From positions 74,256 to 138,255 of the forward strand of contig BDDD01001480.1 in the NCBI GenBank assembly GCA_001972305.1: DNA of 64,000 bases, read 5' to 3'. A model generated the notes under the pieces. It was not told where the DNA came from, did no database searches, and worked only from the letters and a program-made list of their open reading frames with translations. Source of the stretch: Cephalotus follicularis (lineage: Eukaryota > Streptophyta > Magnoliopsida > Oxalidales > Cephalotaceae). The position numbers and the translations under genes are program-made. Below are positions 961 through 64,000 of this stretch, piece by piece (positions within the stretch are counted from its first letter, which is position 1; each line of letters opens with the position of its first letter).

Positions 961-1445
961 CAGTCGGTCGTTTCTCACTGACAGTCGGCTGTTCTCCTTC
1001 AACAGTCGGCTGTCCCATACTTGGCAGTCAGCTGCCTTCAACCACCAGTCGGCTGCCTTCCTTGGCAGTCGGCTGTCCCATGCCAACAGTCGGCTGCCCT
1101 CCTTGGCAGTCGGCTGTCACCCACTTAGCAGTGGGCTGCCCTCTTCAGGCAGTCGGCTGAACCAACACAATACACATTTTTTGCGGCCACCTATCCCAGC
1201 ATACCCGGGAGAGTGACACGTGGACAGTCGGCTGTTACCCAAAACAGTCGGCTGGACCACCACACAGTCGGCTGCCTTCCTTGGCAGTCGGCTACCACAA
1301 ACAACAGGAAGAACCTGCAATTCCATGCACAACAGTCGACTGGCTCCAGTGCCCAGTCGGCTGTTCTCACTGGACAGTCGGCTGTTTTCCAAAACAGTCG
1401 ACTGCTAGCCTTGGACAGTCGGCTGTTTTCCTCAACAGTCGACTG
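961..1445 (-). repeat. 21-bp-stepped decamer arrays in the A' LTR (inner arrays)
   Basis: CAGTCGGCTG-type decamers start at 961, 982, 1003, 1025, 1046, 1066, 1087, 1107, 1129 and 1150, a mean step of 21.0 bp. They resume at 1225, 1245, 1265 and 1285, then at 1333, 1354, 1375, 1395, 1416 and 1436. Spacer sequence varies while spacing stays at 20-22 bp. In LTR sense the motif reads CAGCCGACTG or the palindrome CAGTCGACTG. Confidence 0.9.
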
Positions 1446-1971
1446 CCCACACGGGCAGTGCCCAAAAACAGCAGTAAAACACACACTTCAATCCACATTT
1501 AAACCATTTCCAACCACAATCACTATCACCACAACACATATTCATGCCTCTATCACAATATCACATATGCATTTCACTCATAACATCATTATAATTGACT
1601 TGAATCACAAATAAAGCTTTCCCCTACCTTAGAACTCCAAGTTAGGAGTTGCAATCCACCTCTTTAAGTCCTAGATCCGAGGTCCTTGCACCTCCAAACG
1701 GGTCCAGCAGCCTCCACTGGTCCGATTCCTCCGCTGGTCCGGCCTCCAAGCCCACGGTTCAACACAACTCCTTATGTCCACAACACAAACACACACACTT
1801 TCACTCTCAAACTCACCTTCAAACACACTTGAATCACAAAGGAGATGGAGATTTGAGAAGAGAAATTTGTGTTTTTATGGAGGAAACCCGGCCCCCTCTC
1901 CTGCCTTATCCCACAAATGCCAAAAACTCCCACTTTTTCTCTTTTAACAGCACATGGCTGTCTGGCGCATG

Positions 1972-2105
1972 GCAGTCGGCTGCCATGCCTTGGCAGTCGA
2001 CTATTTCTGCCGACACTCAAAACAGTCGATTGTTTCCTCACAACAGTCGGCTCCTGCCTTCACCAGGGTAGTCCAGTCGGCTGCCAACCTGTGGCAGTCG
2101 GCTGC
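1972..2105 (-). repeat. Outer decamer array near the A' LTR start
   Basis: About six CAGTCGGCTG, CAGTCGACTA and CAGTCGATTG-type decamers lie close to the LTR start. The position matches the outer arrays of element A (8483-8614) and J (42487-42615). Confidence 0.8.
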
Positions 2106-2805: not shown

Positions 2806-3596
2806 AAACAGAAGCTGCCTGAGTGTTTTGAGAGTTAGAAAACACTGAGGATTGAGGGAGGCTTGCTGGAGGATTGTAGGAGTTGCATTGGAGGATTTGG
2901 TTGTTCAAAGAGACTTGGAAGCTCTGGATTTTCCTGGTAAGTTCCAAATCCGAGCTCACCACTGATGTAGTGATTTGTTAATAATGTAACTAGGAGTATG
3001 TTAGAATGCCTTCTGTTAACATGATCAAGGTTAGCAATTTCTGGAATTGAAATGGAATTGGTAAATGGTTCAAGAAGAGTTGAGATTGTAAGCTCTAATT
3101 TGAATTATAGTTGTTGTTAGTTGTCCAGGTATATGTATAATGATCCCTTATGTATATATATACATCTTCTGTCAACACGTTAAGATCAAAGAATCTGGAA
3201 TTGAAATATATTTGGCAAAGAGTTCAAAGAGAAATTGTAAAAGGGTAATTTTGAAGCTTAATGAGTTGTTGATGAGCTACTGTTGGAGTAGTAATTGTAA
3301 TCAGATAATTACTTAACTTACTGATTAAGTGACTGAACCTTCAAGCATGCATGATATAGATTAAATTATGCTGAGATTGGAAGATTGATTTGGTGAAGAG
3401 CTTTGGACATTAAAGAGAGAGATCAATCCAAATTGATCTCGGGATAGCGTTTAAGGTAGGGGTAATGACATATTTTGGAAGATATATTATGCATATCATG
3501 TATGGTTAATTTTCTGGTTGATTTCATGTGTTATTGGGTTAGTATTTGGACATTGAAATGCATAACCTGCTACTGCCTGCCATTTTCTGGGCAAAG

Positions 3597-3708
3597 CAGT
3601 CGACTGTTCTTCATGACAGTCGACTACTCAAACAAACCAGTCGACTGTTAAGAACAAACAATCGACTACTCAACCAAACAGCCGACTGTTCTTGGAAACA
3701 GCCGACTG
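3597..3708 (+). repeat. Decamer array in LTR C
   Basis: CAGTCGACTG or CAGCCGACTG-type decamers start at 3597, 3617, 3638, 3659, 3679 and 3699, giving steps of 20 or 21 bp. The array occupies the same place in the LTR as the GTCGACGCTT array in LTR G (62819-62956). Confidence 0.9.
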
Positions 3709-8310: not shown

Positions 8311-8482
8311 ATATTCCATATATGCTAGCTGGGATAAGTGTAACGTCCGGGGTTTTCGTTAAGGTGTAATGTTACATTTCTAATGTAATTTTACACGTTG
8401 AGCTAATGAGGATTGTGTTTTTCCCCTTTGGTGTGTTGGAAGTTGCAAGAGGAAGTGTGTTAGTGTGTTTTTGTACAGGGGG

Positions 8483-8614
8483 CAGCCGACTGCCACAGGG
8501 AGGCAGCCGACTGGACTCCCCTGGTGAAGGCAGCAGCCAGCTGCTGTGAGGAAGCAGCCGGCTGGTGTGGGTGTCGGCAAAAACAGTCGACTGCCAAGTC
8601 ATGACAGCCGACTG
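8483..8614 (+). repeat. Outer decamer array, LTR A
   Basis: CAGCCGACTG-type decamers start at 8483, 8504, 8534, 8555, 8584 and 8605. Steps are 21, 30, 21, 29 and 21 bp. A copy of the block is at 12990-13120 in the 3' LTR. Confidence 0.88.
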
Positions 8615-9148
8615 CCAGGCGCCAGACAGCCCACGTGCTGTCAGCCTTGGGATGATAAAAGTGGGAGTTTTGGCTTATTTGGGCAGATGGCAGAGAGAGG
8701 GGTCGGGTTCCACTCTTAAAAACACAAGTTTTCCTCTCCAAATCTCCATCTTTCTTAGTGGATTCAAGAGTGTTTAGGAGTACAGAAAATAGAGCGAAAG
8801 TGTGTATGTTGTGGATATAAGGAGTTTGTGTTGAAACCGGAACCTTGGAGGCTGGACCAGTGGAGGAACCGGACCAGTGGGGGCTGCTGGACGGGCTTAG
8901 GAGTGCAAGGACCTCAGATCCGGGACTCAAAGAGGTGGATTGCAACTCCTAACTTGGAGTTCTAAGGTAGGGGAAAGCTATAATTATGATTTAAAGTCAT
9001 TTATAATGATGTTCATGAGTGAAATACATATGTTATACTGTGATAAAGCATGAAGGTGTGTTGTGGTGATAGTGCTTTGTGGTTTGATTGGTTTAAAATG
9101 GATTGAGCATGTGTGATTTCTGTTGTTTTTGGGCACTGCCCATAGGGG

Positions 9149-9581
9149 CAGTCGACTGTCCAGGGAGGACAGCCGACTGTCCGAGGCCGGCAGTCGACTG
9201 TTCGTGAGGAACAGCCGACTACCCATGGAAAACAGCCGACTGTGCATTGGAGCAAGTCGACTGTTCGTGCCTGGTGTTGCAGGTTGCTTCCTGCTGTTTG
9301 AGTAGTCGACTGCCAGAGGAAGGCAGCTGACTGTGGGTGGTACAGCCGACTGTTTTGGGCAACAGCCGACTGTCCACGTGTCACTCTACCCGGGCTTGCT
9401 GAGGTGGCATGCTGGGACAAGTGGCAACAAGGAATGTGTATGGACCAGCCGACTGTTAAGAAGGGCAGCCGACTGCAAAGTGAGGGACAGCCGACTGCCA
9501 AGGAGGGCAGCCGACTGTTGGTTAAGGGCAGCCGACTGCCAAGTGGGAGACAGCCGACTGTCAGTGAGAGACAGCCGACTG
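9149..9581 (+). repeat. Inner decamer arrays, LTR A
   Basis: Six decamers start at 9149, 9170, 9191, 9212, 9233 and 9254, exactly 21 bp apart. A second run starts at 9303, 9324, 9343 and 9363. A third run starts at 9446, 9466, 9488, 9508, 9529, 9551 and 9572. The core is CAGTCGACTG (palindromic) or CAGCCGACTG. Spacers of about 11 bp are unrelated in sequence. Confidence 0.93.
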
Positions 9582-10256
9582 TTTGGGACTGTTTTGCATT
9601 GTGAGCATATGTGTGCATCTTGTGCCGTGATAAACTGTATTGTGATCTGGTTATTGATGATTTTGAAGCGTTTTACCCCCTTTTGGAAGTGCAAACATGA
9701 TTTATATAAATCATTACTTTATGCGAAATGTACGTTTTGAGAAATATATATATTCTCAAAAGATTGTGAAAATGGCTTCCAAAACCTTGTGAAAATGTGT
9801 TTGGTTAATCGAATGGTTTATTAAAATCATTTGTATGGAAAAGTATGTGTTTTCCAAAGGGATTATGAAAGTGGATTTGAAGGGATTGCGAAACTGTTAT
9901 ACGAAATACGTATTTTTGAGGTATTTGAATGTAGTTCAAATAACCGGGTTTTACGGAAAGTGTATGGTTCCAAGTACTTTGCTACTTGAGTTTTCGGGAA
10001 AATGATTGTTATATATATTTTGACAAATATATATGTTGCAAGTATTTTATGAAGCATAATTTACTTGGGAAATGGAGTGTTATATATATATTTTGACAAA
10101 TATATATATGTTGAAAGTATTTATACTTTTAAAAATTTTGGAAACGAACTGCAATGTTTTGAACGAGATGTTTTGATCAAGTATTTATTTTATAAATTAC
10201 TTGAGTGGTTTTGTGTGCGCTGTGATTGCACTGTTATCGTGATTGTGTTGAGTGTT

Positions 10257-10502
10257 GGTACTTAGCCGCCGTGCTAGTATCGTTTACCGTGTATTGATTC
10301 TTGTTACTTAGCCGTCGTGCTAGTAACGTGGATGTTATTGTATTGATTGTGATTGAGTGTTGCCGCTAGCGGGGTAATGTTGGTACTTAGCCGCCGTGCT
10401 AGTATCGTGAGTGTTGCCGTTAGCGGGGAAGTGTTGGTACTTGCCGCCGTGCTTGTATCGTAGTGTGTTATGAGCGTTGTTACTCGCCGTCGTTCCAGTA
10501 AC
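10257..10502 (+). repeat. Hairpin array in LTR A with compensatory stem changes
   Basis: Five units have 5-6-bp arms around a loop of about 13 bases containing GCCGCCGTGCT or GCCGTCGTGCT. Units at 10257-10281 and 10382-10406 pair GGTACT with AGTATC (one G-U pair). Units at 10303-10327 and 10479-10502 pair GTTACT with AGTAAC. The unit at 10436-10459 is a shorter variant. Between them are small palindromes CCGCTAGCGG and CCGTTAGCGG. The array recurs in the 3' LTR (about 23772-24017) and antisense in A' (about 30-120). Confidence 0.8.
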
Positions 10503-11233
10503 AGGAACAATTGTTTGCATTGAGTGTATTGATTGTCTGCTATGACATGCCTGATTGAGTATAGTGTTGTCTTTTGGGACGTGGCTGATCGTTATTGTGG
10601 AGTAATGGGTCCTTAGAGACCTGAGAAATAGTTGACTACTTGTGCTGTTGTGATATTGTGAACCGTGTAGTGTGTTGATGTGCTCTGGTGACATCGTGGC
10701 CTGTGACCTTGTGGTTGTGGCATATGTATATATATATATATATACGCATCGAGATATAGTATGTACTGCATCATTATGCATTCATGTCATGACATGTTTT
10801 ATCCTTGACCCTGGATCGCTTTTATGGCTTTGCCGAGTGAGGACAAAGGCTAACCCCCTACAACTTCAGTGTGTTTCAGGTTGAGGCAGCCGTTGATTAC
10901 AGTTGGGCTCCGAGGAGCAAGTGAAGTTTTATGTTGTTTACTTTGAGGAAATGTGAATGGATCATTGTAATAAATGAATGGTTGTAATAATGAATCGATG
11001 TATTGATGTATATTGTTCACGCTCCGTTTGTGGGAAGTTAACCTTGATGATGTTTATTGTTGTAGCATGTAGTATGGGATGCATGTTACGTTATATTTTG
11101 GCTTATATTATATGCTTCCGCGAGTTGTTAATGGATATGGAAAGTTTTAATTTTATTGTAAATTGCATAAGCCGGATTTATATGTTGATTGCCACCACTT
11201 TTATTGTTGTTATGGGAACGGGGTGTGACAAAG

Positions 11234-12848: not shown

Positions 12849-13619
12849 TGTAACGCCCGGGGTTTTCGTTAAGGTGTAATGTTACATTTCTAATGTAATT
12901 TTACACGTTGAGATAATGAGGATTGTGTTTTTCTCCTTTGGTGTGTTGGAAGTTGAAAGAAAAAGTGTGTTAGTGTGTTTTTGTACAGGGGGCAGCCGAC
13001 TGCCACAGGGAGGCAGCCGACTGGACTCCCCTGGTGAAGGCAGCAGCCAGCTGCTGTGAGGAAGCAGACGGCTGGTGTGGGTGTCGGCAGAAAAAGTCGA
13101 CTGCCAAGTCATGGCAGCCGACTACCAGGCGCCAGACAGCCCACGTGCTATCAGCCTTGGGATGATAAAAGTGGGGGTTGTGGCTTATTTGGGTAGATGG
13201 CAGAGAGGGGGGCCGGGTTCCACTCTTAAAAACACAAGTTTTCCTCTCCAAATCTCCATCTTTCTCAGTGGATTCAAGAGTGTTTGGGAGTAGAGAAAAT
13301 AGAGTGAAAGTGTGTGTGTTGTGGATATAAGGAGTTTGTGTTGAAACCGGAAGCTTGGAGGCTGGACCAGTGGAGGAACCGGACCAGTGGGGGCTGCTTG
13401 ACGGGCTTAGGAGTGCAAGGACCTCGGATTCGGGACTCAAAGAGGTGGATTTTAACTCCTAACTTGGAGTTCTAAGGCAGGGGAAAGCTATAATTGTGAT
13501 TTAAAGTCATTTATAATGATGTGCATGAGTGAAATGCATATGTTATACTGTGATAAAGCATGAAGGTGTGTTGTGGTGATAGTGCTTTGTGGTTTGATTG
13601 GTTTAAAGTGGATTGAGCA
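12849..13619 (+). repeat. 3' LTR of element A, left part
   Basis: The segment starts TGTAACGCCCGGGG and follows the 5' LTR closely, including the outer decamer array (12990-13120). At 13619 element B interrupts it. The target GAGCA is at 13615-13619 and is repeated at 22579-22583. Confidence 0.92.
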
Positions 13620-16145
13620 TGTCACACCCCGTATTCCATTCACGTATAATGCACCAGCATATGTGGTGATATCAGAAATAAGCATAAATAATATTCCAGC
13701 ACAATTCATAAATAAATTTGCGGAAGCATTCGATAAGCCGGAATATAATACAAGTCACCCGCATGCATCCCATACTACGTACGGGCAATTCGATCGTTGC
13801 AATATAAGTGGTAGTGATGTTAAATAACATCAAACTGTGTGCACTATATGGTGGTAACATATACAATTCAGTAACGGTACCAAACAGTAGCAATTCGATC
13901 AATGTTATGCAATTCTACCCAGAACAGTCGGCTGCCCTCAAGATTAGCCGGCTGTTTAGGTTGTGTAGTCGACTGCTTTGCCTTGGCAGTCGACTGGATA
14001 GGTTGAGTAATTGACTGTAATTGTTGACAGTCGACTGCCTCTGCCCAGAAAATGCAGGCAGTGGTATGTCATGCAATGAAATTTCGATTTCCAATCAATT
14101 TCAATACATGTAGCATGTAGAAAATAGACATACACAATATGCATACTATATCTTCTATAACATATCATTACCCCTAACTCAAATTGTTTTCCCAAGATCA
14201 ATTGAGTTTGATCTTTCCCTTTGAGTTCCAAGTCACTTTCACCAACAATCTTTCAATCCAGCAAGTTCAATCTATGTATGCATGTTTTATGGACACATGC
14301 ATTAGTACCAGTAGGTTTCAGTAACACTAACAATAGCTTCAACACTAGTTCATTGAGTCTTAACATCACTCTTACCAATTTACCACTTTCTCTTTGAACT
14401 TTATGCCAAATCTCATTAAATTTCGGGTTCATGGATCTTACTTATTTTGACAGAAGTTGCATTTATATTTAGGATACCAGTAAGCATATTCATGACATTA
14501 ACAACAACTAAAATCCATTCTAAAGGTTATAGTCACCAATTCTACTTGATCCAATCACTACTTCCCATTTCAATTCAAAAGGTTGTTAATTCTAATCCAT
14601 TAACAGAAGATATTTAATCATTCTCCTAGTTGTATCATCATCATAACCACAGAGAATTCGGGTTGAGAACTTACCAAGAGTCCAAAGCTTCAAAATTCCT
14701 TCTTGGAGCTCTCTAATTCATCCAATGTAAACTCCAATGATCCCTCTCTTCACTTAGTGTTTCTAACACTCATTTCACCATTCAATCAGCTGATATAAGG
14801 TCAAAAGACTGTTAAATTCGTCAGATTCCTTCTATGTCACATGCACTCACATTTCACTCTTTCTTTTCCATCACATGCATCCCTCTCTTCACTTTTCTCT
14901 CATTGTTAATCAATTTGTAGGTTGTAGATCTGCAGAGAACATGCAAACATTCACTTTTGCATGTTCTGGAAGATGGTGAAACGCATGTGCCTCCTACCCA
15001 TCTGTCATTCTTGTCCCTGCACATGCCAGGAACCTGTCCTGGGCAATTCCAGTCGACTGGCTATAGTGGGCAGTCGACTGCCTTCCTCACGTGGCAAACA
15101 GTCGACTGTTGCCCTGTGATAGTCGGCTGTTTGGGCTGGTTTAGGGTTACCAGTAGGTTTCAGTAACACTAACAATAGCTTCAACACTAGTTCATTGAGT
15201 CTTAACATCACTCTTACCAATTTACCACTTTCTCTTTGAACTTTATGCCAAATCTCATTAAATTTCGGGTTCATGGATCTTACTTATTTTGACAGAAGTT
15301 GCATTTATATTTAGGATACCAGTAAGCATATTCATGACATTAACAACAACTAAAATCCATTCTAAAGGTTATAGTCACCAATTCTACTTGATCCAATCAC
15401 TACTTCCCATTTCAATTCAAAAGGTTGTTAATTCTAATCCATTAACAGAAGATATTTAATCATTCTCCTAGTTGTATCATCATCATAACCACAGAGAATT
15501 CGGGTTGAGAACTTACCAAGAGTCCAAAGCTTCAAAATTCCTTCTTGGAGCTCTCTAATTCATCCAATGTAAACTCCAATGATCCCTCTCTTCACTTAGT
15601 GTTTCTAACACTCATTTCACCATTCAATCAGCTGATATAAGGTCAAAAGACTGTTAAATTCGTCAGATTCCTTCTATGTCACATGCACTCACATTTCACT
15701 CTTTCTTTTCCATCACATGCATCCCTCTCTTCACTTTTCTCTCATTGTTAATCAATTTGTAGGTTGTAGATCTGCAGAGAACATGCAAACATTCACTTTT
15801 GCATGTTCTGGAAGATGGTGAAACGCATGTGCCTCCTACCCATCTGTCATTCTTGTCCCTGCACATGCCAGGAACCTGTCCTGGGCAATTCCAGTCGACT
15901 GGCTATAGTGGGCAGTCGACTGCCTTCCTCACGTGGCAAACAGTCGACTGTTGCCCTGTGATAGTCGGCTGTTTGGGCTGGTTTAGGGTTTCTTAATCTT
16001 TGATACTTCTCCAATTGCACATCCATTCATCCCAAGCATATACCAATCGTAAAAATCAATATAATTGGACAATTAACTCAATTAAAATGTATATTTTATT
16101 TCAAAATGGGATCAATATACATTAATTGAAGTTACAGTTATTACA
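13620..16145 (-). repeat. 3' LTR of B, with an 842-bp tandem duplication
   Basis: On the plus strand it starts TGTCACACCCCG and ends ATTACA. Units 14307-15148 and 15149-15990 look identical base for base where I compared them, including a variant (GATAGTCGG) not shared with the other LTR. Decamers start at 13925, 13945, 13966, 13987, 14008 and 14028, with more near 15050-15130 and 15893-15970. After about 13786 it diverges from the right LTR, so R/U5 sequence present at 20350-21260 is missing. Confidence 0.85.
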
Positions 16146-16160
16146 TTCCCCCCTCCTTAA
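16146..16160 (-). other. Polypurine tract of element B
   Basis: Minus-strand purine run TTAAGGAGGGGGGAA next to the 3' LTR. Confidence 0.85.
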
Positions 16161-16191
16161 AGAAAATTCGTCCTCGAATTTAGCCCTTACA

Positions 16192-19100
16192 TTACATTCC
16201 GAACAAGTGGGGAAATGTTTCCTTCATTTCATCCTCACGCTCCCACGTAGCTTCCTCAGCTCCGTGAAAACGCCACAGCACTTTGACCATAGGGATGGTC
16301 TTGTTTCTCAGAACCTTTTCCATTCGGTCAACAATCCTCGTCGGCCTTTCTTCATAAGTCAATCTAGGACTAACGAATCCAGGGTCGTAGCTCAAAATGT
16401 GAGATGGGTCGGGCACGTATTTCCGTAACATGGAAACATGAAATACGTTATGTACGTCCGACAAACTAGGCGGTAGTGCAATCTGGTATGCTACCTCCCC
16501 CACTCTTTCCAGTATCTCGTAAGGTCCAATATACCTTGGAGCTAACTTCCCTTTGAGGCCAAAACGGTGTATCCCCTTCGAAGGCGAAATCTTCAAGAAA
16601 ACATGATCTCCCTTCCCGAACTCTAGTTTCCTTCTCTTGCTATCGGCGTAACTCTTCTGCCGACTCTGCGCAGCTAGCAGTCTTTTCTTGATCATCTCTA
16701 CTTTAACAGTGGTTTCTTGTACCAAGTCCGGTCCAAGCACTTGTCTCTCACCTACTTCGTCCCAGCAAATAGGTGATCTGCATTTTCTCCCGTATAAAGC
16801 TTCATACGGAGCCATTCCAATGCTGGTGTGGAAACTGTTATTATAGGAGAACTCAATCAGTGCTAGATGATCCTCCCAACTCCCAGCAAAATCAATCATA
16901 CAAGCCCGTAACATACCCTCCAGAGTCTGGATAGTACGCTCGGACTGTCCGTCAGTCTGTGGATGAAATGCAGTGCTGAAATTTAAGGTTGTTCCCATAG
17001 CTACTTGGAACTTCTTCCAGAACCTTGAAGTAAATCTAGCATCACGGACACAAACAATACTGACCGGCACCCCATGCAATCTCACTATCTCCCGGATATA
17101 CAATCGAGCAAGCTTCTCGATAGAATATGTCATGTTTATCGGAAGAAAGTGTGCGAACTTAGTAAGTCTGTCCACAACAACCCACACTGCCTCATGTTGA
17201 TTACGTGACCGCGGTAATCCCGACACAAAGTCCATGGTCACATGCTCCCATTTCCATTCAACCACTGGTAGCGATTGTAGCAGTCCCGCATTTTTCTGAT
17301 GTTCAGCCTTCACTCTCTGACAGATCAAACATCTTGCTACATATTCAGCAATTTCTCTCTTCATACCATTCCACCAGTAATTCTTCTTCAGGTCGTGCCA
17401 CATCTTGGAACTTCCTGGGTGAACACTGTATCTCGATTTATGAGCTTGTTGTAATAACTCATTCTTGATACTCTCATCATCCGAAACACATATCCTCCCT
17501 CGGAACCTCAATATGCCATCGGTATGAATGGAGAACTCAGAATCAGTGTCTAGGTTCTCACGAATACTCCACAATTCAGCGTCACTGTACTGAGCAGTCA
17601 GANNNNNNNNNNNNNNNNNNNNNNNNNNNNNNNNNNNNNNNNNNNNNNNNNNNNNNNNNNNNNNNNNNNNNNNNNNNNNTGACCTAAGAAAGTCACATGA
17701 TCCAGCCAAAATTCGCACTTGCTGAATTTGGCGTACAACTGTTCCTTCCGTAGTGTCTGCAATACAATTCGCAAATGCTGCATGTGTTCCTCCATGTTCT
17801 TTGAGTAGATCAAGATGTCGTCCAGGAATATCACGACAAATTGGTCAAGATAAGGTTGGAACACTCTGTTCATCAGACACATAAAGGCTGCAGGAGCATT
17901 AGCCAAACCAAATGGCAGTATCAGAAATTCGTAATGCCCATATCTGGTTCAAAATGCGGTTTTCTCCACATCACCTTCTCTGATCCTCAACTGATGGTAA
18001 CCTGTTCTCAGGTCAAGTTTGGAGTATACACTTGAGCCTTGCACTTGGTCGAACAACTCCTCAATATGTGGCAGACGATATTTATTCTTTACCGTCACTT
18101 GGTACAGTAGCCTGCAATCAATGCATAGCCGTATCGATCCATCCTTCTTCTTCACAAACAAAACCGATGCGCCCCACGGTGATACACTCGGTCTGATAAA
18201 TCCTTTGTCAAGATAATCTTGCAGTTGAACTTTCAACTCCTTCAGTTCAGTAGGAGCCATTCGGTATGGTGATCTAGATATAGGAGCAGTTCCAGGTAAC
18301 AACTCAATGCTGAACTCGATATCTCTCTCCGGTGGCAACGAAGTGAGTTCATCTGGAAACACATCAGGAAAATCACATACAACAGGCACTTGTTCAATAC
18401 TGGGCGTACCTTTTGTATGATCAATCACATACGCCAAATAGCCTTCGCATCCTTGCTTGAGATATTTCTGTGCTCGTGTATATGAAATGATCGGAGCAGC
18501 AACATTCTTCTCTCTGATAAACTTGCACTCAGTCCCATCTTGCAGATAAAATGTCATCATCTTGTTGTAGCAATCAACACAAGCATGATGAGCATACAGT
18601 CAATCCATCCCCAAGATTACATCAAAATCTCGAATAGGTAACACTATCAAGTCAGCGAATAGTTCAATCCCAGCTATCACGATTTCACAGTCTTTCATAA
18701 CAGTATCAGATAAAAGACAAGTACCCGCAGGAGTACTCACTTCCAAAACATATGATAGCCTAGAAGTAATGCCATGCAAATTGCAAACAAATTCAGATGC
18801 AATGAATGAATGCGTTGCACCAGGGTCAATCAATACATGAGCTAGTATGTCAGATATGTAAATAGTACCTCCCACAACAGTAGTAGATTCTGGCATATCA
18901 TCTTTAGATAAGGTATAGACTCTACCTTTCATGATCCCCTTTTCGGTGTCTCTTCGCGGTTGAGCCGCCACAACACTACCACTAGCACCAGCATTCCCTT
19001 GTTGGCCGCGCACTTGTTCCCTAATCATTGGGCAATTCATCAGTATGTGATCTTGTAAGCCACACTTCAAGCACTTTCCCGTCTTCTTCCAACACTCAGA

Positions 19101-20111
19101 CTCATCATGATTTGGACGACCGCAAAAAGTACATCCTTTAGAGTTCTGTTGGCCACTTCGGTTAGGAGTTCTTGATCGAAAATTGTTGCGTCGAAAACCT
19201 CCTTGATTCTTATTTCCAGACTTTGCAGAACCAGCAGGTTTGTTGTTACCCTGTCTTTGTGACTGTGTTGGTCTCAATTGAGTACGAGACCGCTCTATCC
19301 TTCTGTCATTTGCATCGGACTCCAGAATCCTAGCTCCCTCAGCAATATCAACAAAAGATGTTAGCTGCAATAGTAATAACTTAGATCGGATATCCGGACG
19401 AAGGCCTTTCAGGAACCTTCGGATCTTTCTGGGTTCACCCTCTACAAGATAGGGCATGTGTCGAGCTAACTCCACAAAACGGGTCTGGTATTGAGCTACC
19501 GTCATATCACCTTGACGTAACTCCATCAATTCTGTCTCTCTCCTGTCTCGTTCCATCTGTGGAACATAAGCTGCAGAGAACTCTGATTGAAATCGGTCCC
19601 AAGTTCTGTCCAGATTTTGAGATTCCCACTTTGCTTCAACCATTTCCCACCAATGAGTAGCTTCACCCCATAGGCGGTACGCAGCAAAGGAAATCTTCTG
19701 TTCATCGGTACATCTCAGGGCGTCAAATATCCTCTCCATGTCTCTCATCCATCGCTCAGCTACATTGGCATCCAACTCTCCCAAGAATGTAGGAGGATTC
19801 TGCCTCATGAACCGTTCTAGATCTCTGCCAAAATCACCGACATGATTGACTTCTGGAACACACTGTTGGGCTTGAGTAGCCTCATACATCTTTCTCATCT
19901 GCTCCATGTGTGCAGCATTGGCTTGGATTTGTTGTTGGAAGAGATCAGCCATGCGTTCGAAGTTACTCCTCTCATCGTGGACTGGAGGGGCATTCACTTC
20001 AGGGGCATTCTCGTGAACAGGCGGGGCCTCGTTCCCCTCGTCAGCTCTATGCCTTCCACGTCCACCTCTCCTTCGATCCATTTTGTTTCCTAAATGGAAT
20101 GACAAAATCAT
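16192..20111 (-). pseudogene. gag-pol: gag-protease-RT-(gap)-integrase-chromodomain polyprotein of element B
   Basis: Gag starts at Met 20081 (MDRRRGGRGR) or the in-frame Met 20111. It has a core (FMRQNPPTF...YRLWGEATHWWE) and knuckles CTFCGRPNHDESEC and CLKCGLQDHILMNC. Protease has DPGATHSFIASEF. RT has [10 protein letters not shown] and FLDDILIYS. After the gap, integrase shows the H/H/C/C zinc finger (CLICQ) and TMDF and QTDGQSERT motifs. The tail VLWRFHGAEEATWERED...PHLF resembles the Tekay chromodomain. Two nonsense codons lie in an otherwise single frame: 18600-18602 (GMD-stop-LYAH, Trp expected) and 17949-17951 (TGA for CGA). The second integrase Asp is Val (SIVCVRDARF where SDRD is usual). 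Confidence 0.93.
17603..17679. other. Assembly gap (77 N) inside pol of B
   Basis: The gap falls between the end of the RT palm (HVTFLG) and the region before integrase (LTAQYSDAELW). In relatives about 240-260 residues (RT thumb and RNase H) lie there. The stated 77 bases are therefore far too few unless the element has a deletion. Frames on the two sides differ by the stated length. Confidence 0.9.
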
Positions 20112-20172
20112 TAGGAAACATTTTTTACTTAATTTCCGAGAAACTTATCCCAGCTTAGCATATATGGAATAT

Positions 20173-20184
20173 GCTCTGATACCA
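20173..20184 (-). other. Primer binding site of element B (tRNA-iMet)
   Basis: The minus strand reads TGGTATCAGAGC, 4 bases from the 5' LTR end at 20189. Confidence 0.92.
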
Positions 20185-20188
20185 TGCT

Positions 20189-22578: not shown

Positions 22579-22583
22579 GAGCA

Positions 22584-36377: not shown

Positions 36378-36382
36378 ATTGT

Positions 36383-45310: not shown

Positions 45311-48245
45311 TGTAACACCCCCCGAATGGCGGGAGTCGTTACGGTTCCTAATCCGAGACTAAACATAACCTATCATGAAATATAACTCGATTTTATTCCT
45401 TTTTATCAGATTATTAACTCATCTTTTATTCGAATTGCGTGATGGTCTAAAACTTAATATTCAAAATCTAAAACATTGTCTAAGACTTTATTCATAATAT
45501 GAAAACTTAAACATGAACGAAAACTTAAATATAATCCAAAGTCATAAACTGAAAGACATAATATTGTTTAAATAGGGGGTCCTAACATGACCATAAAATA
45601 ACTAAGCATAAACGGTTCCATCTCCTAAGTGATCCTTTTCATAGGTGACATCTCGCTCATCACACATTGCCCGGATGCTGTCCCAGAATACCTGCCGCAT
45701 GAAAACAAAATGCGGCTGAGCAAACCTCAGTACGGATATAGAATCATAAAACATAAAACGATAATTTAAAAGATAGAAAATACCTCAATCTTTAAATAAC
45801 ATATACCTTATGCAAAAAAATAATTTAACATTATTTTCAAAAGGTAAGTAGTCATACAATCAATTTAAAACGAGTACCTAATTTTTAAAGCGTTATTCAA
45901 TTCCAAGACATAAACCAAATTCAAAATCACAACACATGTTCAAAACGAAAAACAAACAGAGACTTATCCGATTTCCAAAATCTCATCTCAGAGATCCAAA
46001 GCGCATACACATATGCGTAGTTGCAAGGGGTTTGCAAGGCCCACATGCCAAACGGAAAGACGTGTACGGCACTACACAATCAATCCCCAGAATCCATATC
46101 CTTAACATATCAGATACTAGAGTATACCCATACACCTCTATCACACATATCGGATCCATAAATCCACCTCATGGGATTTATTCAAAACATAGAGAGACGC
46201 CGAAGTCAAATCACACCGCTACGATAGTGTCATATCCCCGTGCCAGGCCCACGACATGCCTATGGTACCTCCATAGGTAGGAAATATCTCTGTGTATATC
46301 CTTATTTCAAAAACATTGTTTTATTTGTAAAAATGATTTAAAAACGTAAACACATTTTCTAAACATTTTCTGGTCATAGTAAAACCATTACATAGCATTA
46401 ACTCATTTATTTTCAACTATAAAGAGATGATTGTATTATATTTCTTAACATATCATAGCATAAGAATAAAGTCAAGAACATTAAATTCTCAAAATGTCAA
46501 CTGACTTTTATTTTCAAAATCGTATCGAATCATAAAACATAGCCAAGTTCATAAAAAGTAAAACGGGATAGTTCCAATAAAAATCAGATAGCCAAAGAGC
46601 AGAAAATCCGTACATTATTCATAAAGTAAAACTATCTTTTATTTACTATAGTAAAAACGATAGGAGGGTATCAAGGAACGAAACATCCGTACCTTAAGCG
46701 ATCACAACAAAGATAGACGAATTGATCAACAATTTTAAAAGTCCCTCGAAGCACAAAAATCTAAAAGATGCAATATCATTCATATAAGCATTCAAATATC
46801 ACTTCCAAACATCAAACAGTAATTTAACAGTGTTTAAAACAGACTACAAATCATTAGACGGACCAAGGGATTACAAAACTTGAAACCAGAACATTCACTG
46901 GACAGAACCAGCCGACTGTATCAAAATCCAGTCGACTACTCAAAGGGTGGCAGTCGACTGGATGGCATAGGCAGCCGACTACTCAAACTGGGTATGAATC
47001 CAGTCGACTGTTCAATGGGTGGCAGTCGACTGTGCAAGGCAAAACAGTCGACTGTTTCACAAGGCAGTCGACTGTTCTGGGAGACAGAACAGCAAAAACA
47101 TAGCAGTTTCAATTCCAATTTTCTGTTAAACTTCCAATATTACAACACTAGATGATCTTAAACACTTACATAGAATTTATGTGACTCTACAGTTGCATTT
47201 AAACACCCCGAATCAAGAAATCATGCATTGGTGATCACACTTTTTATAGAGACTTATGAAATTCTAACATCTAGTCCTATGATCCGATTCCATCCATGCA
47301 GTGTTACCAGGTTATTATACCAGATTAGACTGTTCATATTTGGTGTTCTAAGGCTGTCATCACAAAACACCAGGACACAAACCAATAGGATAACCATGTT
47401 CATATTTTATAAAGAGACAAATTTCAATTTCATGCATAGATGCTTATATGATCAATTTCCTGTCAATTACCATTGTTTGTTTATCAAAACCAGTACATAA
47501 CATCTACTTAATGCATGATGACAGATTCAGAAACCATGATAACACTTAGAGTTACGGAAAAAAAAACATACTAGCAACCAATCATGCAATAGACTTTGAT
47601 AACAAAACTAAATGCTAAACCATAACAGTGGGGGATAACAAACCTGATTCAATGAAGCAAAGAAGACAAAAACAACTTCTAATCATGCAGGTTCGGCTCT
47701 AGGAGAGAGATAAACAATGGAGGCACAACAATGAACATATAGCATACTTATACAATATGAGAAAGGCAATTTAGGTCATGGTAATGTAGAAAAGGAATCC
47801 AAATCTGACATGATGTGGAAAGAGGGCAGAAATTCGGGATTTGCTAGGGAGAAAGAGAAGGAAAGAATCGGTTTTGGGAGGGAAGAAGGAAGAAAACGTG
47901 TAGGAGAGGGAGAGAAATAGGAAACAAAATAAAATTTCCATAATACTCTTATTTTATTCCCAATTTAATTCACCCTTGCCATATTAATAATTTAAAAAAA
48001 ATTGATTTTAAAATACAAAACAATTAATTTTATTTTTCCCATAATCCTTATTCCATTAATTTATCAAAAGCCCAAAGATGGTATTATTTAGCCTAAGACA
48101 TAAAAGCCCCAAAAATTATAATATCATATAGCTCATAAATTAAAATTGACCAACCATATAATAAAATCAAAATTCCAAAATATGCACACCAACATAAAAT
48201 CAAATAAAAATCCGAAAATATGCACACGAAAATCGGGGTATTACA
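45311..48245 (-). mobile_element. Solo LTR E in Copia pol
   Basis: 2935 bp with perfect duplication GCGTT (45306-45310 and 48246-48250). Read on the minus strand it starts TGTAATACCCCG and ends GGGGGTGTTACA, like the 455-bp mini-LTR at 6326-6780. No internal coding region is visible, so it is a solo LTR. It carries a decamer array at 46909-47074. Confidence 0.82.
46909..47074. repeat. Decamer array in LTR E
   Basis: Decamers start at 46909, 46929, 46951, 46972, 47001, 47023, 47045 and 47065, with steps of 20-22 bp and one of 29. The non-palindromic copies read CAGCCGACTG on the plus strand, opposite to the LTR sense I infer for E. Confidence 0.88.
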
Positions 48246-51839: not shown

Positions 51840-54800
51840 TGTTTGAAAACCAAGTAGGGTTCCCGGTCGATTTGGCCCTAGGATGCTAGTGTGTATAACT
51901 TTAATTTTTCAAAAACACCAAGACTACAAGTCAAGGTTTACACCGACATCTTGGTACCAAAATAAATATGCCAAGGATCTCCGTTTAATATTCAATCGAA
52001 CCACTACAAATAGTCAAGCATACACAAAAAATAAATTGAATTCACTTCGGTAACCATAAATACAAAAAGATAGCAACCATACCAACGTTGGAGGCTCCAC
52101 CAATTTGTCTCTACAAGCTTGCAGCAGCAACTGTCTATCACCGGAGGTCCTGCCGAATTCCGGCCATATCGCCAGAGTTCTGACCACGATGCCATCGAAC
52201 TCCAAAAGCGCCGATCTACCCATTGCTGTCAAAGACTTGGCGGGAAGTGCCACGGAAAACACAAGCGCATCCGACAGAGACGGGAACTCGCTAGTTGGAC
52301 TCAGCAATTCTGTTCAACTCGCTAAGGACCGGCCACGCCATCACCAGTCACCAAAATTCCCGATCTACACGCTGGTGGCTAAGACTCGCTGTGACTCGCC
52401 AAAGAATGGCTGGTCACAGCCAACAGCGAGTCAAACTCAGTGAGTCGACTCACCCGCCTAAAGCAAGTCCGACAGCTTCACAAATGCGCCACAAAAACTC
52501 AGATCCATGCTTCTCCACCTGAGACTCGGCTCATCTCACCACTAAGTCACTTTACCGGAGTTCTGACAGGGACGCCATATCTCCGGTCTCGTCACTATAG
52601 GCCATCAAATCTTCCGATCTGCTCGATGCCGCCTAAGACCCGCCGTGACTCGGCTTGAAACGCCAGGTCACAGCCTCCAATGCGCCATATCGATTGAGTC
52701 GACTCAGTGTTCAAAATCCGGCCAAAAACACACGGAAATCTCCTAGACTATAATCAAAATACATACAGCCAAAGATTGGCTCCACCTATTGTGATCACCG
52801 ACGGTGGAAAGAGAAGCCGACAGCGGGTGATGGCAAAACCTCAAGTTTGCCGCCAGAGAGAAACAAAGGAGAAAGAGGGAGAGAGAGAGAAGGAGGCGTG
52901 TTGTGTATGAACACACACCTTTTTCCCAGCCGCCGGCTCCATGCGCCATCCTTCTCTGGCCGAGATGCGTGCCCAGCGTGCCAACACACGCTGTGCGTTC
53001 CCTCTCGCCATTTTTAGCGCACACCCAGTGCTTTTTGTGCAAAACGGTAATGTGTCGTATGCCAAAATATCCTTCTCCATGTTTTTTAATGTTTCTCTCT
53101 TTGTATTAAAGCATGCTAACCCACTATAGCTTCTATTTATATATCAATAAGACAATTTGGTGGAGAAAAACACAAACCACTAATGTCAAATGAATATATA
53201 CTAGTTAAAAACTAGATTTACAACCAAGCGAGCATGTGTGCAACATGCGTCACTTTTCCAATAATCAAGTGGGACCCGAAAGCCCGGTGGAATTCTGGTA
53301 CAATGATAAATTTCCCATAACATCCCAAAGTCCTGGTACGACTTTCCTACTAATAGTCCCGGTGTAATAACCGCAATTCAATTAATGTATATTGATCCAA
53401 TTTTGAAATAAAATATACATTTTAATTGAGTTATTTGTCCAATTATACTGATTTCTATGATTGGTAAATGTTTGGGGTGAATTGATATGCAATTGGTGAA
53501 GTATCAAAGACTAGGAAACCCTAATCTAGTCCAAACAGCCAACTGTCACAGGGTAACAGTCGACTGTTTGCCACGTGAAGAAGGCAGTCGACTGCCCACA
53601 AATTCCAGTCGACTGGTTTGCTCCAGGACAGATTCCTGGCATGTGCAGGGACATGAAGGACAGATGGGATAATGTCACTTGTGTCTCCTCATCTGCCAGA
53701 ACATGCAAAAGTGAATGTTTGCATGTTCTCTGCAGACCACCAACTACCAAATTGATTAATTAAGAGAGAAAGTGGAAGTGATGGAGGCATGTGGTGGAAA
53801 GAATGAAAGAAAAATGTGAGTGCATGTGAGTAGGTAACAAATCTGACGAATTCAGAGGTTCTTGAGAGTTATATCTGCTGATTGAATGGTGTTGGAGTGT
53901 TAGAAAACACAGGGAGAAGAGAGGAATTAGTGGAGCTTGCATTGGAGATGTTAGAAAGCTCAAAAAGGAGGACTTTGAGGCTCTAGACACTTGGTAAGTC
54001 CTTGATCCGAATTCTTTGTTATTTTGATGATTAAATGACTAGGAAAAATGTTGTATATCTTCTGTTAATGGATTGGAATAACAATCTTTGGAATTGAAAT
54101 GGAAAGTAATAATGAAATCAAGTGGAATTGGTGATATAGTCTCTAGAATAGATTTTAATTATTGATAGCATTATGATATATGCTTAATGGATTCTAAGCA
54201 TGAATATATATTCTGGAATGTGCTACTGTCACATTATTATAAACTGTTTTGGTGTCGTTTATCACCACCACCACTTGTATTTCAATGATTGAAACCAACT
54301 ATGGACTATGTATCCAATTATGAAATCAAACTATCATTTTCAAGTGAATGATTATTGCCAAATAAACTACTGATTTTTCCTCCTATATGAGAGGTACTTA
54401 CTGTTTTGTTTCCCAAATTGGAAACCACTATTTAAGTGATGTCGTTTTCCTCCAAAGAGAGGTACGATAAGTGAAGTGTTATAGTTTCTAAAGAAAACTA
54501 CTTTCTATTGCATATTGATAATATATGTAATATTATTCTTGAATTGATTGTATTGATTATGTATGAGTGCCGTGGTTGGTGACGGAGGTTGTCACTGACT
54601 ACGGGAATGTGATTCTGAGTGCCAGGAGTTGGCCAGAACATCACCTAAGTGTGTTTGCAAGTGTTAAACTACCCGCCAACACCGGTAGTAAGTGTTACCT
54701 AGTCTGTCATTCTCGGAGCGCAGGGTGATAGATAGGTGGTGCACAGTTAGTGCTAGGAGTTAGCGACTGTGACACCCAGTGAGTGTTGAATTGATTGTAC

Positions 54801-60217: not shown

Positions 60218-61409
60218 TGTTAGGTTAAGGATGTCCATGTATGTCATGAAATGGCTCGTTTGTGTATATACACTCTTAATTAATACAATTCTAAATTCCT
60301 TTTATGTTGCATGTGCATATTTATATAATGGCAAGGATATGTGGCTCATCCCAACCAACCAAAAGAAACAGACTAATTATACGTAATTAACTGTATGCCA
60401 TAATAGCGTCCTGTCACATTCAAAGGGTTGGATCTCTTGCCGAGGGCTATGAGAATGAGATCCTTATTCCCTGTGACAAATGTTCCAAGTCATAGGTTCA
60501 CTTTCTTAAGGACCATTGATGAACCGTGAAGACTTGTCACGTTAAGCTTGCTCCAGGGTTAGCAGTGGAGGTTGGTTATCTCGTAGCCAATTGGGTTTAT
60601 CCCTAAAGCTAAATGTGAGGTGTATGCTAGAGAGCAGGACACTGAACAGACCCACCAATAGGAAACCTATTTGGATAGTCAATACTCAATGTCAATAGGA
60701 TTTCTATGGTCTCGGTAGTGTATAGTATACGGTGAATAGTAGGTCTATAGCATACGTTGTCTCCTTTGACCTGAGCGGCTAGCATGCATTATGTGGTAAC
60801 TACTTAACTTTGATTTACGTCTTTCCCAGCACTAGTCAGGTGCTGGCAAAAGGGTTATCTTTGGGTCTTGTGGGAGCTATATTGAGATGTATGGGCGAGT
60901 GCGTAATACGAGATCATCACACCCGGGCTGAGGGTGACCGGATCTATTTGTCTATGTACGTTGCTGACTTAAAAGTCCTGATCAGGCATAGGTGGACTGG
61001 GAACGAGAGGTTCCCATGGGAGGTCTCCGATAGTCACAATGCGATCATAGATTCATAGCTATCACAGCACTACTAGGGGTGACTTCATCCAAACCCCAGG
61101 CTATAATTGAAACCATGTATGACGAGGGAAACATGACACATATGCCGATGACTGGATAAAGCGAATGGTTATTCGGTCCATGATTGATAGATGTGGTAAT
61201 ACAAGGATTCGGGGGTGACTGGCGTTCACACCGGGGGTGCTCTGATAGTCGGTGTACTATTAGAGTGCTCGTACCAGATGACGGGGTGCACTGGGAATTT
61301 ATCATCATACCGGAGAACGACATGCTTTCGGGTCCTGCCTGACTTTGAACATGTTGATATGTGGCGGGTCACATCATTTAGTGAAAGGACAACATCAGGG
61401 AAGATGTTG
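60218..61409 (+). mobile_element. Copia LTR L (partial, interrupted by LTR G)
   Basis: It starts TGTTAGGTTAAGGATGTCC and matches LTRs K and N over most of its length (for example TCACATTCAAAGGGTTGGAT near 60414). At 61410 LTR G begins, and the rest of L is outside the window. No coding sequence. Confidence 0.75.
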
Positions 61410-64000
61410 TGTAATAACCGCAAATTCAATTCGTGTACATTGTAATATTAGTTAATAAAATGTGCACTCATTTGAATTTAATGTCCAGTTATAATAATTC
61501 TTATGATTGGTAAATGCTTGAAATAGAATTCTTAAAAGGAAAATTAAATAATTGATTTTTGGTGTTAAACCGCCGACGCTTAGAGTCACACCGTCGACGC
61601 TTTAAGACCTGGCATGTGTAAAACGCACCGTTGAAGACTAGGCTGGGCGCCAATCGTCGACTTTTAAACACTCCGTATTGGCACTTAAAGGCGTCTAAGC
61701 GCCGACGCCCACGAGGCAACCGGCGATGCTTTAGTCGTGCTCTGGCGCAGAATAGGTGTCAATTGAAAGGAAATGGCAGAGCTGGACTTGATGGGAACCA
61801 AGGCACGCGTCCTTAGACGTGTTGGCCATGCAAAGGGGACCTTGCCAGCTGTTGATGTGCCAGAATGAAACCTTTGCATGCCTCCCTTCAACCTGCACAA
61901 CCTGCAAAACTTAGAGAAAGAACAAAAGAGGGTGCATGCATGTGAGAGAGAGAGAGGAAGACATTGAAAGCTAAACCAACTGTGGAAATTAAAGGCACAA
62001 GTTTGAACACTTATATCAGCTGGTGTTGAGCTATTTGAGAGTTGAAAAAAAAACACTGAGAGAAGAGGAGAATTGCTGGGGAATTTCGAAGGCTTGCATG
62101 TTGATGGATTAGAGCTCAAAGAAGGGAATTGAAGCTTTGGAGTTCTTGGTAAGTCCTTAGTTCGAACTCACTGTTAAAATGATGATAATGTAACTAGGAG
62201 GAATATTGAATACCTTTTGTCAACATGATTAAGGTTAACAACTTTAGAATTGATTTAAAATGGTAAAGGAAAGAAGTAAGAAATGGATATGAAGCATAGG
62301 GAGTTTAGATAACTCTAATTTGGATTATTATTGTTGTTAGTTAGTTGTTATAACTACTAATTCCCCTAAGTATACACATACATCTTCTGTCAACATTAAG
62401 ATCAAAGAATCCGAAATTGGAAGGAATTTGACAAAGAGTTCAAAGGGAATGGGAAGAGTAATGTTTAAGACTCAATGAGCTAATGATTAGCCACTGTTGG
62501 AATTGTAGTTGTTATAAGTATTTACTGGAACCTTCTGATATTAATGCATGTCCTTAAACATGTAAATGTATAGACTGAATTTACTGGATTGAAAATTGTT
62601 GTGGAAAAGACTTTGGAAACACAAAGAGAAAGATAATTCCAATTGATCTTGGGATAGCGATTTAAGGTAGGGGAATTTGACATGTTTTTAAACATATAAC
62701 ATGCATAATATGTTATGATGGTTGATACTTGGTTGCATGTCAAATTGGATTGAGTTTAGATTGAATTTGTGCATCCCCTGTTTTGAACTGCTCCTGGAAT
62801 TCGTATGAAACCCAGAAGCGTCGACGCTTCCAGGGTAACTGTCGACGCTTTGATACGAAAATGGCATAGTAATGCTTAGAGTGTCGACGCTCAAACTGTG
62901 TAATATCGACGCCTAGTCATTAACCGTCGACGCTTATATAGTAACTGTCGACGCTTTGGACCAGTAGGTGTAGAAATTGTAAATTGATCAATTGAATTGT
63001 TTGTGGTTGCAAATATCCCTAATATGTTATATTGTAACCATTATTACTGTTATTGGGTAAAATTTCTACTGTAATGAATATATATTCAAGAATTTTACCA
63101 ATTTAATGCTTAAAGCATAAACAATGATTGTAAACGGTTTTCTAATAGAAAATCTTATTATCATACCAACTGTTATTTTCCTCCTAATAGAGGCACTGCT
63201 ACTGTTTTATTCTCCAATTGAGAACCCCTACTGTACTGATGTCGTTTTCCTCATATGAGATATACGATCACTGAAATGTTATATGTTTCTAAAGAAACAT
63301 CTTTTATATTACATACTATTGATATATGTAATATTACTACTGAACTGCTTGAATTGTTTGTCTATGCTTACTGCCGTAGTTAGTGATGGAGGATATCACT
63401 GACTACGGATGTGATTCTGGGTGCCAGGAGTTGGCCAGAGTATCACCCAAATTTATTTGCATTGCAGATCTTATTTGTTAAAACTACCTGCCAACGCCGG
63501 TAGTAAATGTTACCTGCCTGTCATCTTCGGAGCGAAGGTGATAGTCAGGTGGTGCACAGTTGGTGCTAGGAGTTAGCGACAGGTGACACCCAAACCACTG
63601 TATGAATTGATTGTACCCTTGTGCGGTATTCTTGCATATGGATTGTTTATGGCCACTTGGCATGATTGCGTATATATTGAAACATCTATATATATATATA
63701 TATATGCCATTTCATTATCTGTCATGCATATTTACATTTATAGTTTCTTCTACATGCTTTATCTACCTACTTAGCCAAGTGAGGACAACGGCTAACCCCC
63801 TACAATTTCAGATTGAGCGAAGACTTGGGGATTACTGCTGAAGCTTGGAGAGCTTCTTCTTTTGATTTAAGGTTGTTATTTTCCCGTATGATGTATTGTA
63901 TCGAACGGATCACACTCCGTGTACTGTTATATTTCCTTATGTAAGGATAATTTATTTGAATTGTTTCCGCACGTAGTATGGGATGCGTGCGGATGACTTA
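61410..64000 (+). mobile_element. Tekay LTR G, running off the right edge
   Basis: It starts TGTAATAACCGC like LTR D and follows LTR C through its length. Hairpins are GCCA-GGAGT-TGGC (63423-63435), GCTA-GGAGT-TAGC (63565-63577) and GAAGCT-TGGAG-AGCTTC (63840-63856). Where C and A carry CAGTCGACTG arrays, G carries GTCGACGCTT arrays (outer at about 61569-61740, inner at 62819-62956). TGTTG at 61405-61409 is the likely left target copy. Confidence 0.85.
62819..62956 (+). repeat. GTCGACGCTT array in LTR G with 21-bp steps
   Basis: TCGAC occurs at 62821, 62842, 62884, 62906, 62927 and 62948. Steps are 21, 42, 22, 21 and 21 bp, so one degenerate unit (near 62863) is skipped and the register is kept. 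The typical unit is GTCGACGCTT. Confidence 0.9.

Follow-up and report, generated by a model that had tools for sequence, protein, structure and literature searches.

Oriented decamer arrays with steps of about 21 bp in plant Ty3/gypsy LTRs are candidate cis-regulatory sites

A 64,000-nucleotide stretch of the Cephalotus follicularis genome (contig BDDD01001480.1, positions 74,256 to 138,255; hereafter the window) contains long terminal repeats (LTRs) in which a palindromic or near-palindromic decamer with a GTCGAC-like core recurs about every 21 bp. Are these arrays binding sites that selection has kept, or are they what is left of a short sequence that was duplicated in tandem?

Results

Number, spacing, and orientation of the decamers

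The decamers named in the preliminary description are real: we found 107 matches to CAGTCGACTG with at most one mismatch, compared with a mean of 1.0 and a maximum of 4 in 100 dinucleotide shuffles. Arrays with at least four sites numbered 16 and held 128 sites. Start-to-start distances of 19 to 22 bp accounted for 85 of the 112 neighboring steps, while random placement gave 14, with a maximum of 28. A distance of exactly 21 bp was seen in 55 steps, 20 bp in 19, 22 bp in 10, and 19 bp in one (mean 20.87 bp for these short steps in the 16 arrays), and the 27 longer steps were mostly 28 to 30, 39 to 42, 48 to 51, or 75 to 83 bp. The six starts at 9149, 9170, 9191, 9212, 9233, and 9254 were exactly 21 bp apart, as described. 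Exact 21-bp spacing had also been reported from 31400 to 31505; three of those steps are 21 bp, but the last is 42 bp and spans a degenerate copy near 31484. The mean of 21.0 bp given for LTR A′ was confirmed (982 to 1150, or 168 bp), but over eight steps rather than nine, and the single steps range from 20 to 22 bp. When the window was scanned for any recurring word, nine regions had a 6- or 7-mer present at least four times at 19 to 23 bp, and all the words listed (up to six per region) were of the (T/C)CGAC family. Tandem Repeats Finder listed a few other repeats of 20 to 23 bp, with two or three copies each.

The sites share one orientation, in agreement with the earlier claim: among 138 sites, the sense strand of the element carried CAGCCGACTG 61 times and CAGTCGGCTG not once, while only 32 sites were exact palindromes. 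Placement of all motifs on one helix face, by contrast, held within runs but not across the linkers of 28 to 30 and 48 to 49 bp; since these linkers are not whole numbers of 10.5-bp turns, strict helical phasing over whole arrays was ruled out. The pooled phase score was highest at 10.25 bp and again close to 21 bp, a descriptive peak scored on the observed sites alone. Extension of the dyad around the motif was at chance, as judged by complementarity between positions −k and +k (k = 1, p = 0.07; k = 2, p = 0.5). Antisense frames of about 160 to 220 amino acids cross several arrays, and a coding repeat of seven residues was rejected because the 20- and 22-bp steps shift the frame.

Elements that carry the arrays

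The LTRs that host the decamer arrays in the window belong to two divergent Ty3/gypsy families, L and S (Table 1). A primer site lies at 11234, just 3′ of LTR A, and ATAAG both precedes LTR A and follows LTR D. The frames of element E follow the Ty3/gypsy order (gag-PR, RT, INT), with a Ty3 capsid match and weak Chromo matches. The 22 sites of LTR A occupy LTR positions 145 to 1243 of 2892, and there are fewer sites per LTR in E.

Table 1. Coordinates of LTRs, the nested element, and decamer arrays in the window.
Feature	Position	Strand	Sites	Details
LTR A	8339..11230	+		family L; about 2.9 kb; ends TGTAACG...GTGTGACA
A array 1	8483..8614	+	5	steps 21, 51, 29, 21
A array 2	9149..9581	+	17	in putative leader intron
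LTR D, first part	12849..13619	+		partner of A, split by nested element E; 96% identity to A
LTR D, second part	22579..24739	+		95% identity to A; then ATAAG
D array 1	12993..13124	+	5	
D array 2	22623..23096	+	15	carries 41-bp two-unit block absent from A
A′ array 1	1973..2104	−	6	LTR of minus-strand family L element, about 1-2250
A′ array 2	982..1445	−	19	
G array 2	31400..31667	−	11	LTR end at 30161
H array 1	42487..42617	+	4	LTR end at 44609
H array 2	43153..43420	+	12	
Element E	13620..22578	−		family S; nested in LTR D; GAGCA flanks both sides
E 5′ LTR array 1	22325..22404	−	4	steps 21, 28, 21; CACGTG within 28-bp step
E 3′ LTR array 1, copy b	15892..15971	−	4	
E 3′ LTR array 1, copy a	15050..15129	−	4	product of 843-bp duplication
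E 3′ LTR array 2 (array C)	13925..14037	−	4	
B array 2	3597..3708	+	6	family S
Array I	46909..47074	+	8	not placed in an element
J array 1	53536..53615	+	4	family S
K array	62818..62957	+	6	at array 2 position; steps 21, 42, 22, 21, 21

Core, flanks, and neighboring boxes

All 17 arrays examined have RYCGAC on the element sense strand (129 matches), with 81 matches sense-only and 5 antisense-only; this match was sought post hoc, with the motif already known. RYCGAC is the CBFHV, or AP2/ERF, word in the available text of two papers (PMC4886440, PMC6804553), so that the arrays resemble CRT/DRE elements, from which they differ in that the sites stand in dense phased arrays. The window has 11 CACGTG copies, of which nine are no more than 40 bp from an array, in zones that make up 8.3% of the bases. 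Many CACGTG boxes are homologous copies.

In the K array, which lies in a related LTR, the RYCGAC core and the register are kept, while the flanks are now TCGACGC and little of the dyad is retained outside the core. Such an array could reflect a phased recognition code in which RYCGAC and the two-turn spacing are fixed and the flanks (mostly CAG/CTG, TCGACGC in K) switch in concert, as though the elements of each subfamily followed a binding factor of their own, of host or element origin, in order to remain active or evade silencing. We consider this idea improbable. K has six sites, in a single element.

Divergence of motifs and spacers

Between lineages, 35 of 443 motif columns differed, compared with 97 of 477 in spacers and 557 of 3497 in the rest. 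When the paired LTRs of a single insertion were compared, the order was reversed, with 15 of 270 in the motif and 83 of 3306 in the rest, and the interaction of lineage or insertion with motif or rest gave z = 4.75, for alignments that are partly motif-anchored and a neutral set of two insertions. The comparison of motif and spacer substitutions suggested in the preliminary description gave a deficit in motifs between lineages, but within insertions the two did not differ (15/270 and 16/302), part of the 16 spacer differences stemming from exchanged units. Motif and rest differed at p < 0.05 in six of eight lineage pairs and motif and spacer in four of eight; neither comparison reached p < 0.05 in the pairs A1-A′1 and H2-G2. 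Judged from these alignments, the motif is held between lineages while the spacers change, and the retention of the motif as the intervening DNA changes hints that a gene-switch protein docks at these sites. The contrast of within-insertion with between-lineage differences is a simple route to showing selection on the control DNA of transposons.

The spacers had been called unrelated in sequence, which proved incorrect, as their identity in seven arrays was 0.34 to 0.50, compared with 0.27 to 0.35 in shuffled spacers. The 41-bp two-unit block distinguishes A from D, the two LTRs of one insertion, and a two-unit periodicity was seen in A′ and D. To judge from these sequences, the arrays gain or lose whole units; with spacers that are partly homologous, the 21-bp register can therefore begin as a duplication register. 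Of the earlier view that spacing and motif were both selected and not a remnant of duplication, the constraint on the motif between lineages stands, while the remainder is unsupported as worded, given the homology among spacers. The case for constraint on the spacing is weaker than that for the motif, because indels of 1 bp are the most frequent size in other parts of the LTRs as well (22 of 27 in one A-A′ stretch, 9 of 18 in another).

Discussion

How far could duplication by itself explain the arrays? The whole-unit differences between A and D, the two-unit periodicity, and the spacer identity above that of shuffled spacers all fit a plain minisatellite, a functionless 21-bp unit that was spread by slippage and is now decaying. 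However, motif identity between units (0.84 to 0.94 in the same seven arrays) is well above that of the spacers, and is this high despite every motif cytosine lying in a CG or CHG context. At all six bacterial control loci, which match the same array pattern in genome contigs with two to seven units each, the spacers were nearly as alike as the motifs (0.64 to 0.93 compared with 0.85 to 1.00). The preservation of the motif between lineages but not within insertions, and of core and register in LTR K, also argues against a minisatellite, which we regard as improbable. A second alternative, considered for the long-LTR family L in particular, is that adjacent motifs pair in the transcript, chiefly the antisense one, and that the resulting stems of about 12 bp feed small-RNA pathways or serve as structure. 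The complementarity in question lies across the spacer, giving antisense hairpin potential, and not in a dyad around one motif: the outermost two bases on either side of a spacer were complementary in 18 of 55 non-redundant spacers from all arrays (9.0 expected from shuffles, p = 0.0008), and separately in A′ (8/17, p = 0.017), G (5/10, p = 0.011), and array 1 of family L (7/8, p = 0.019), but not significantly in A (6/14, p = 0.06) or H (3/10, p = 0.14). Family S together with array I showed no excess (2/18, against an expectation of 3.2). Under the most stringent redundancy filter, the count was 4 of 14 (p = 0.10). Antisense folds of array 2 compared with spacer-shuffled controls gave z = −7.0 for A and −6.7 for A′, but only −2.7 for H, −1.6 for G, −1.2 for E array 1, and −2.3 for A array 1, while sense folds gave −0.1 to −1.9 except in A′ (−3.7). 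With the C4 variant, the antisense strand can still form a G-U pair, and Sirevirus palindromes of maize are small-RNA mapping hotspots in the available text of PMC5311732; on the other hand, the commonest variant, CAGCCGACTG, gives a C-A mismatch in the sense strand, and little of the dyad outside the core is left in K. We consider a hairpin role unlikely, if somewhat less so than the minisatellite. For the 21-nt small-RNA register raised in the preliminary description, this antisense hairpin potential in the long-LTR family comes nearest to being evidence.

The arrays might also be targets not of an ordinary activator but of an anti-silencing factor comparable to VANC, which VANDAL elements encode. 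According to the available text of PMC5735166, VANC targets are likewise short, dense motifs of one orientation in non-coding DNA, with tandem growth and concerted change, as in K. VANDALs, however, are DNA transposons that encode their own binding protein, and a Pfam scan of eight reading frames here gave no VANC-like domain, although the missing gene says little since the elements are broken. This reading we find very improbable.

Motif constraint, shared orientation, and clustering at 20 to 22 bp are best read as a protein-binding array, as first proposed, while cooperative binding is something that we infer. On the sequence evidence, the decamers are probably cis-regulatory binding sites in plant Ty3/gypsy LTRs. 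A DNA-binding factor would read the RYCGAC core and its 3′ flank, the two-turn spacing could permit clustered or cooperative binding, and the arrays with nearby CACGTG boxes may act as promoter-side and leader-intron enhancers that aid transcription of the element. The best single guess for the factor, a tentative one, is a DREB/CBF-type member of the AP2/ERF proteins; binding by some sequence-specific factor seems likelier than that guess. The tomato Rider LTR, as given in the available text of PMC6762207, has DRE-like and ABRE-like words as well, and its predicted CBF site goes with no cold response, which counts against the CBF reading. Rider differs in that its drought and ABA response is experimental, and that text does not mention phased arrays like these.

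A pattern scan of viral contigs for relatives found eight loci with a single two-site match each, which we read as chance, and a protein scan of viral contigs with part of the E integrase gave no match. Among the matches listed in a literature search on two decamers, titles mostly concerned animals, microbes, or methods, with one plant paper (on a nectarine MYB gene). In one paper that was looked up, GTCGAC occurred in primers only.

If the decamers are regulatory sites, phased motif arrays occur in Ty3/gypsy elements too and are not a Sirevirus specialty, and they would offer a natural, many-copy test of how the strength of a control region depends on site spacing, orientation, and flanks, and of how elements maintain the function of a control region that is heavily methylatable. 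The closest known system is the palindromic repeated motifs in the LTRs of Sireviruses, which are Ty1/copia elements (Bousios et al. 2010, PMC2829016). In the available text of that paper, these motifs are also palindromic or nearly so, numerous, located in the first half of the LTR, and variable between elements; like them, the palindromic motif of LTR A is present at least eight times in the element, and its sites are grouped in the upper half of that LTR. Here, in contrast, the elements are Ty3/gypsy and not Ty1/copia Sireviruses, the arms are CAG-CTG and not CGG-CCG, and the arrays are asymmetric on the sense strand with steps of 20 to 22 bp. Sirevirus arrays border CpG islands, while four arrays here have no island (CpG observed/expected, 0.45 to 0.60). 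The Vitis version of the Sirevirus motif given there, CGGTCGACCG, is two transitions away from the motif found here.

Phased decamer arrays in the LTRs of two Ty3/gypsy families

The GTCGAC-like decamer that the preliminary description had reported in the LTRs was present: with at most one mismatch it matched the window 107 times, against a mean of 1.0 and a maximum of 4 in 100 shuffles. With two mismatches allowed there were 16 arrays, each with four sites or more and together comprising 128. Of the 112 steps between neighbouring starts in them, 85 measured 19-22 bp, among them 55 of exactly 21 bp; in 2000 trials that placed the sites at random within the array spans, such steps numbered 14.3 on average and never more than 28. 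The distance check proposed earlier bears out a clustering of steps around 21 bp, but the register is one of 20-22 bp and not always 21; of the two series described as exactly 21 bp apart, 9149-9254 is exact, and 31400-31505 contains one 42-bp step across a degenerate copy. A motif-blind scan of the window returned nine regions, and the words printed for them (at most six per region) all belonged to the decamer motif family. The phased motif array is real in both Ty3/gypsy families of the window.

The window consists of nested plant LTR elements. The frames of element E follow the Ty3/gypsy order (gag-protease, reverse transcriptase, integrase), with a Chromo match below the Pfam cut-off; its gag frame matched a protein of Cephalotus follicularis best (75%, with 47% of the query covered), and three of the seven matches were to proteins of this species, so the DNA probably comes from it or from a relative. 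Family L (A, D, A', G and H) has LTRs of about 2.9 kb that start TGTAACG, family S comprises B, E, J and K, and the Gag proteins of A and E are about 47% identical. The LTRs end in GTGTGACA, and A and E have the primer site TGGTATCAGAGC behind this end; we take the pattern to be typical of Tekay/Del chromoviruses.

Two arrays each were found in A, D, A', H and the 3' LTR of E, separated by about 0.5 kb in family L and about 1 kb in E; G and B carry array 2 only, and J and the E 5' LTR array 1 only. Array 2 of A lies between a donor-like TTCTAAG/GTAGGGG at 8967, common to A' and H (D has GC at the donor position), and an acceptor-like TTTTTCATATAG/G directly ahead of the gag ATG, which suggests a putative leader intron around this array. 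Acceptor-like sites also occur at the matching place in the gag at 24764 and in that of E. Of the 11 CACGTG words in the window, 9 lie no more than 40 bp from an array, in zones that cover 8.3% of the bases; the binomial p is too small here, as these nine include several homologous copies.

Coordinates of features in and around the arrays
Feature	Position	Strand	Remarks
Element E	13620-22578	minus	GAGCA on both sides
Array I	46909-47074		not placed in a family
Middle of E LTRs	13788-14143, 20357-21418		LTRs unlike; array 2 in 3' LTR, missing from 5' LTR
Perfect 843-bp tandem duplication	14306-15990		E 3' LTR; doubles array 1
Putative leader intron	8967-11339		2.4 kb; starts within LTR A, extends beyond primer site, stops shortly ahead of gag ATG
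54-bp tandem repeat with GCCGCCGTGCTAGTA words	10354-10466 (A), 23869-23981 (D)		farther down LTRs
249-bp satellite, block 1	26472-30157		14.8 copies; starts at end of a family S reverse-transcriptase frame
249-bp satellite, block 2	36384-37815		5.8 copies; all three blocks sit between and within LTR-element pieces
249-bp satellite, block 3	39795-42007		8.9 copies
GAGTCGACTC	32577, 32590, 36066, 36079, 52442, 52696		outside arrays

Constraint on the motif

We counted differing columns in the motif, the spacers and the rest of the LTR, both within insertions (A with its partner D for both arrays, and E5 with E3b, a copy of array 1 in the E 3' LTR) and between lineages (five comparisons: A-A' twice, H-G, E-J and B-C, C being array 2 of the E 3' LTR). 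Within insertions, 15/270 motif, 16/302 spacer and 83/3306 remaining columns differed; the motif showed more change than the rest of the LTR (p 0.01), which is expected where every cytosine stands in a CG or CHG context, and no more than the spacers, some of whose differences are exchanged units. Between lineages the pooled counts were 35/443, 97/477 and 557/3497, and the odds ratio of motif against rest shifted from insertions to lineages with z 4.75, where the neutral set is two insertions, the alignments are partly motif-anchored and sites are defined as near-motif in either partner. Among eight lineage pairs, p<0.05 was reached in six for motif against rest and in four for motif against spacer, and A1-A'1 and H2-G2 reached it for neither. 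The suggested comparison of motif with spacer came out as fewer differences in the motif between lineages and similar levels within insertions. These counts indicate that the motif is under constraint, as had been suggested. Selection on spacing, suggested alongside it, is less certain: steps remain 20-22 bp between lineages differing by 10-50% in their spacers, but 1 bp is also the most frequent indel length in other parts of the LTRs, and duplication alone gives equal steps.

Unit turnover, strand and core

The spacers had been described as unrelated in sequence, which did not hold. Seven arrays have four or more full units; their spacers averaged 0.34-0.50 identity, against 0.27-0.35 after letter shuffling (motif identity, 0.84-0.94), with little excess in array I (0.35 against 0.31). 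Arrays also differ by whole units: A and D form the LTR pair of a single insertion, with ATAAG at either end, but a 41-bp block of two units sets D apart from A. Since a similar block stands at that place in A', the difference may reflect a loss in A rather than a gain in D. A two-unit periodicity is seen in A' and D. Whole units evidently come and go. Six bacterial loci picked up by this pattern are simple repeats of 21-22 bp, with 2-7 units each and spacers almost as alike as the motifs.

On the sense strand the 138 sites include 61 CAGCCGACTG, 32 CAGTCGACTG and 0 CAGTCGGCTG, in agreement with the single orientation reported for non-palindromic copies; 61 against 0 implies that the palindrome can be given up on one side but not on the other. 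Sense-strand RYCGAC occurs in 17 of 17 arrays (3-18 per array, 129 in total); 81 words are sense-only, against 5 that are antisense-only. This word is listed as CBFHV and assigned to AP2/ERF proteins in PMC4886440 and PMC6804553. K, 72% like B over 2827-3520, has at the array 2 place six sites with another flank, TCGACGC, in steps of 21, 42, 22, 21 and 21; all six are [AG]TCGAC, and in this one case core and register have outlasted the flanks.

Hairpins and putative binding sites

Hairpins may matter in family L and deserve weight as a rival explanation. Complementarity of the outer two bases at the spacer ends exceeds chance across all arrays: 9.0 of the 55 non-redundant spacers were expected to have it and 18 do (p 0.0008). 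The excess is also seen in A' by itself (p 0.017), in G (0.011) and in array 1 of family L (0.019). A and H miss the 0.05 level (0.06 and 0.14), family S with array I shows no excess (2/18), and the strictest redundancy filter leaves 4/14 (p 0.10). Antisense folds of array 2 reach z of about -7 against spacer-shuffled controls in A and A' but only -2.7 in H and -1.6 in G, and sense folds stay close to these controls except in A' (-3.7). Against controls that put whole spacers in another order, the antisense folds still beat the mean (A, -223.0 against -211.4; A', -227.7 against -218.9), unlike the sense fold of A. K has little dyad outside the core, and hairpins do not account for what all arrays share.

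With a constrained motif, the arrays are best read as putative regulatory binding sites, in line with the protein-binding array first proposed; the identity of the binder is a guess. A literature search reaching few subscription papers found no report of Ty3/gypsy LTR arrays of this kind. Among known systems the arrays come closest to the repeated motif in the LTRs of Sireviruses, which PMC2829016 describes as palindromic, present in many copies in the upper LTR half, different between elements and Sirevirus-specific among the copia elements compared. Two transitions separate its Vitis version from CAGTCGACTG. The elements here differ in not being Sireviruses, in lacking CGG-CCG arms and CpG excess, and in having a register. 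VANC targets (PMC5735166) have orientation and tandem growth in common with the arrays. For Rider, PMC6762207 shows that working DRE- and ABRE-like words are possible in LTRs and that a predicted CBF site does not guarantee a cold response.

Another GTCGAC palindrome in the window, GAGTCGACTC, twice forms a 13-bp tandem pair.
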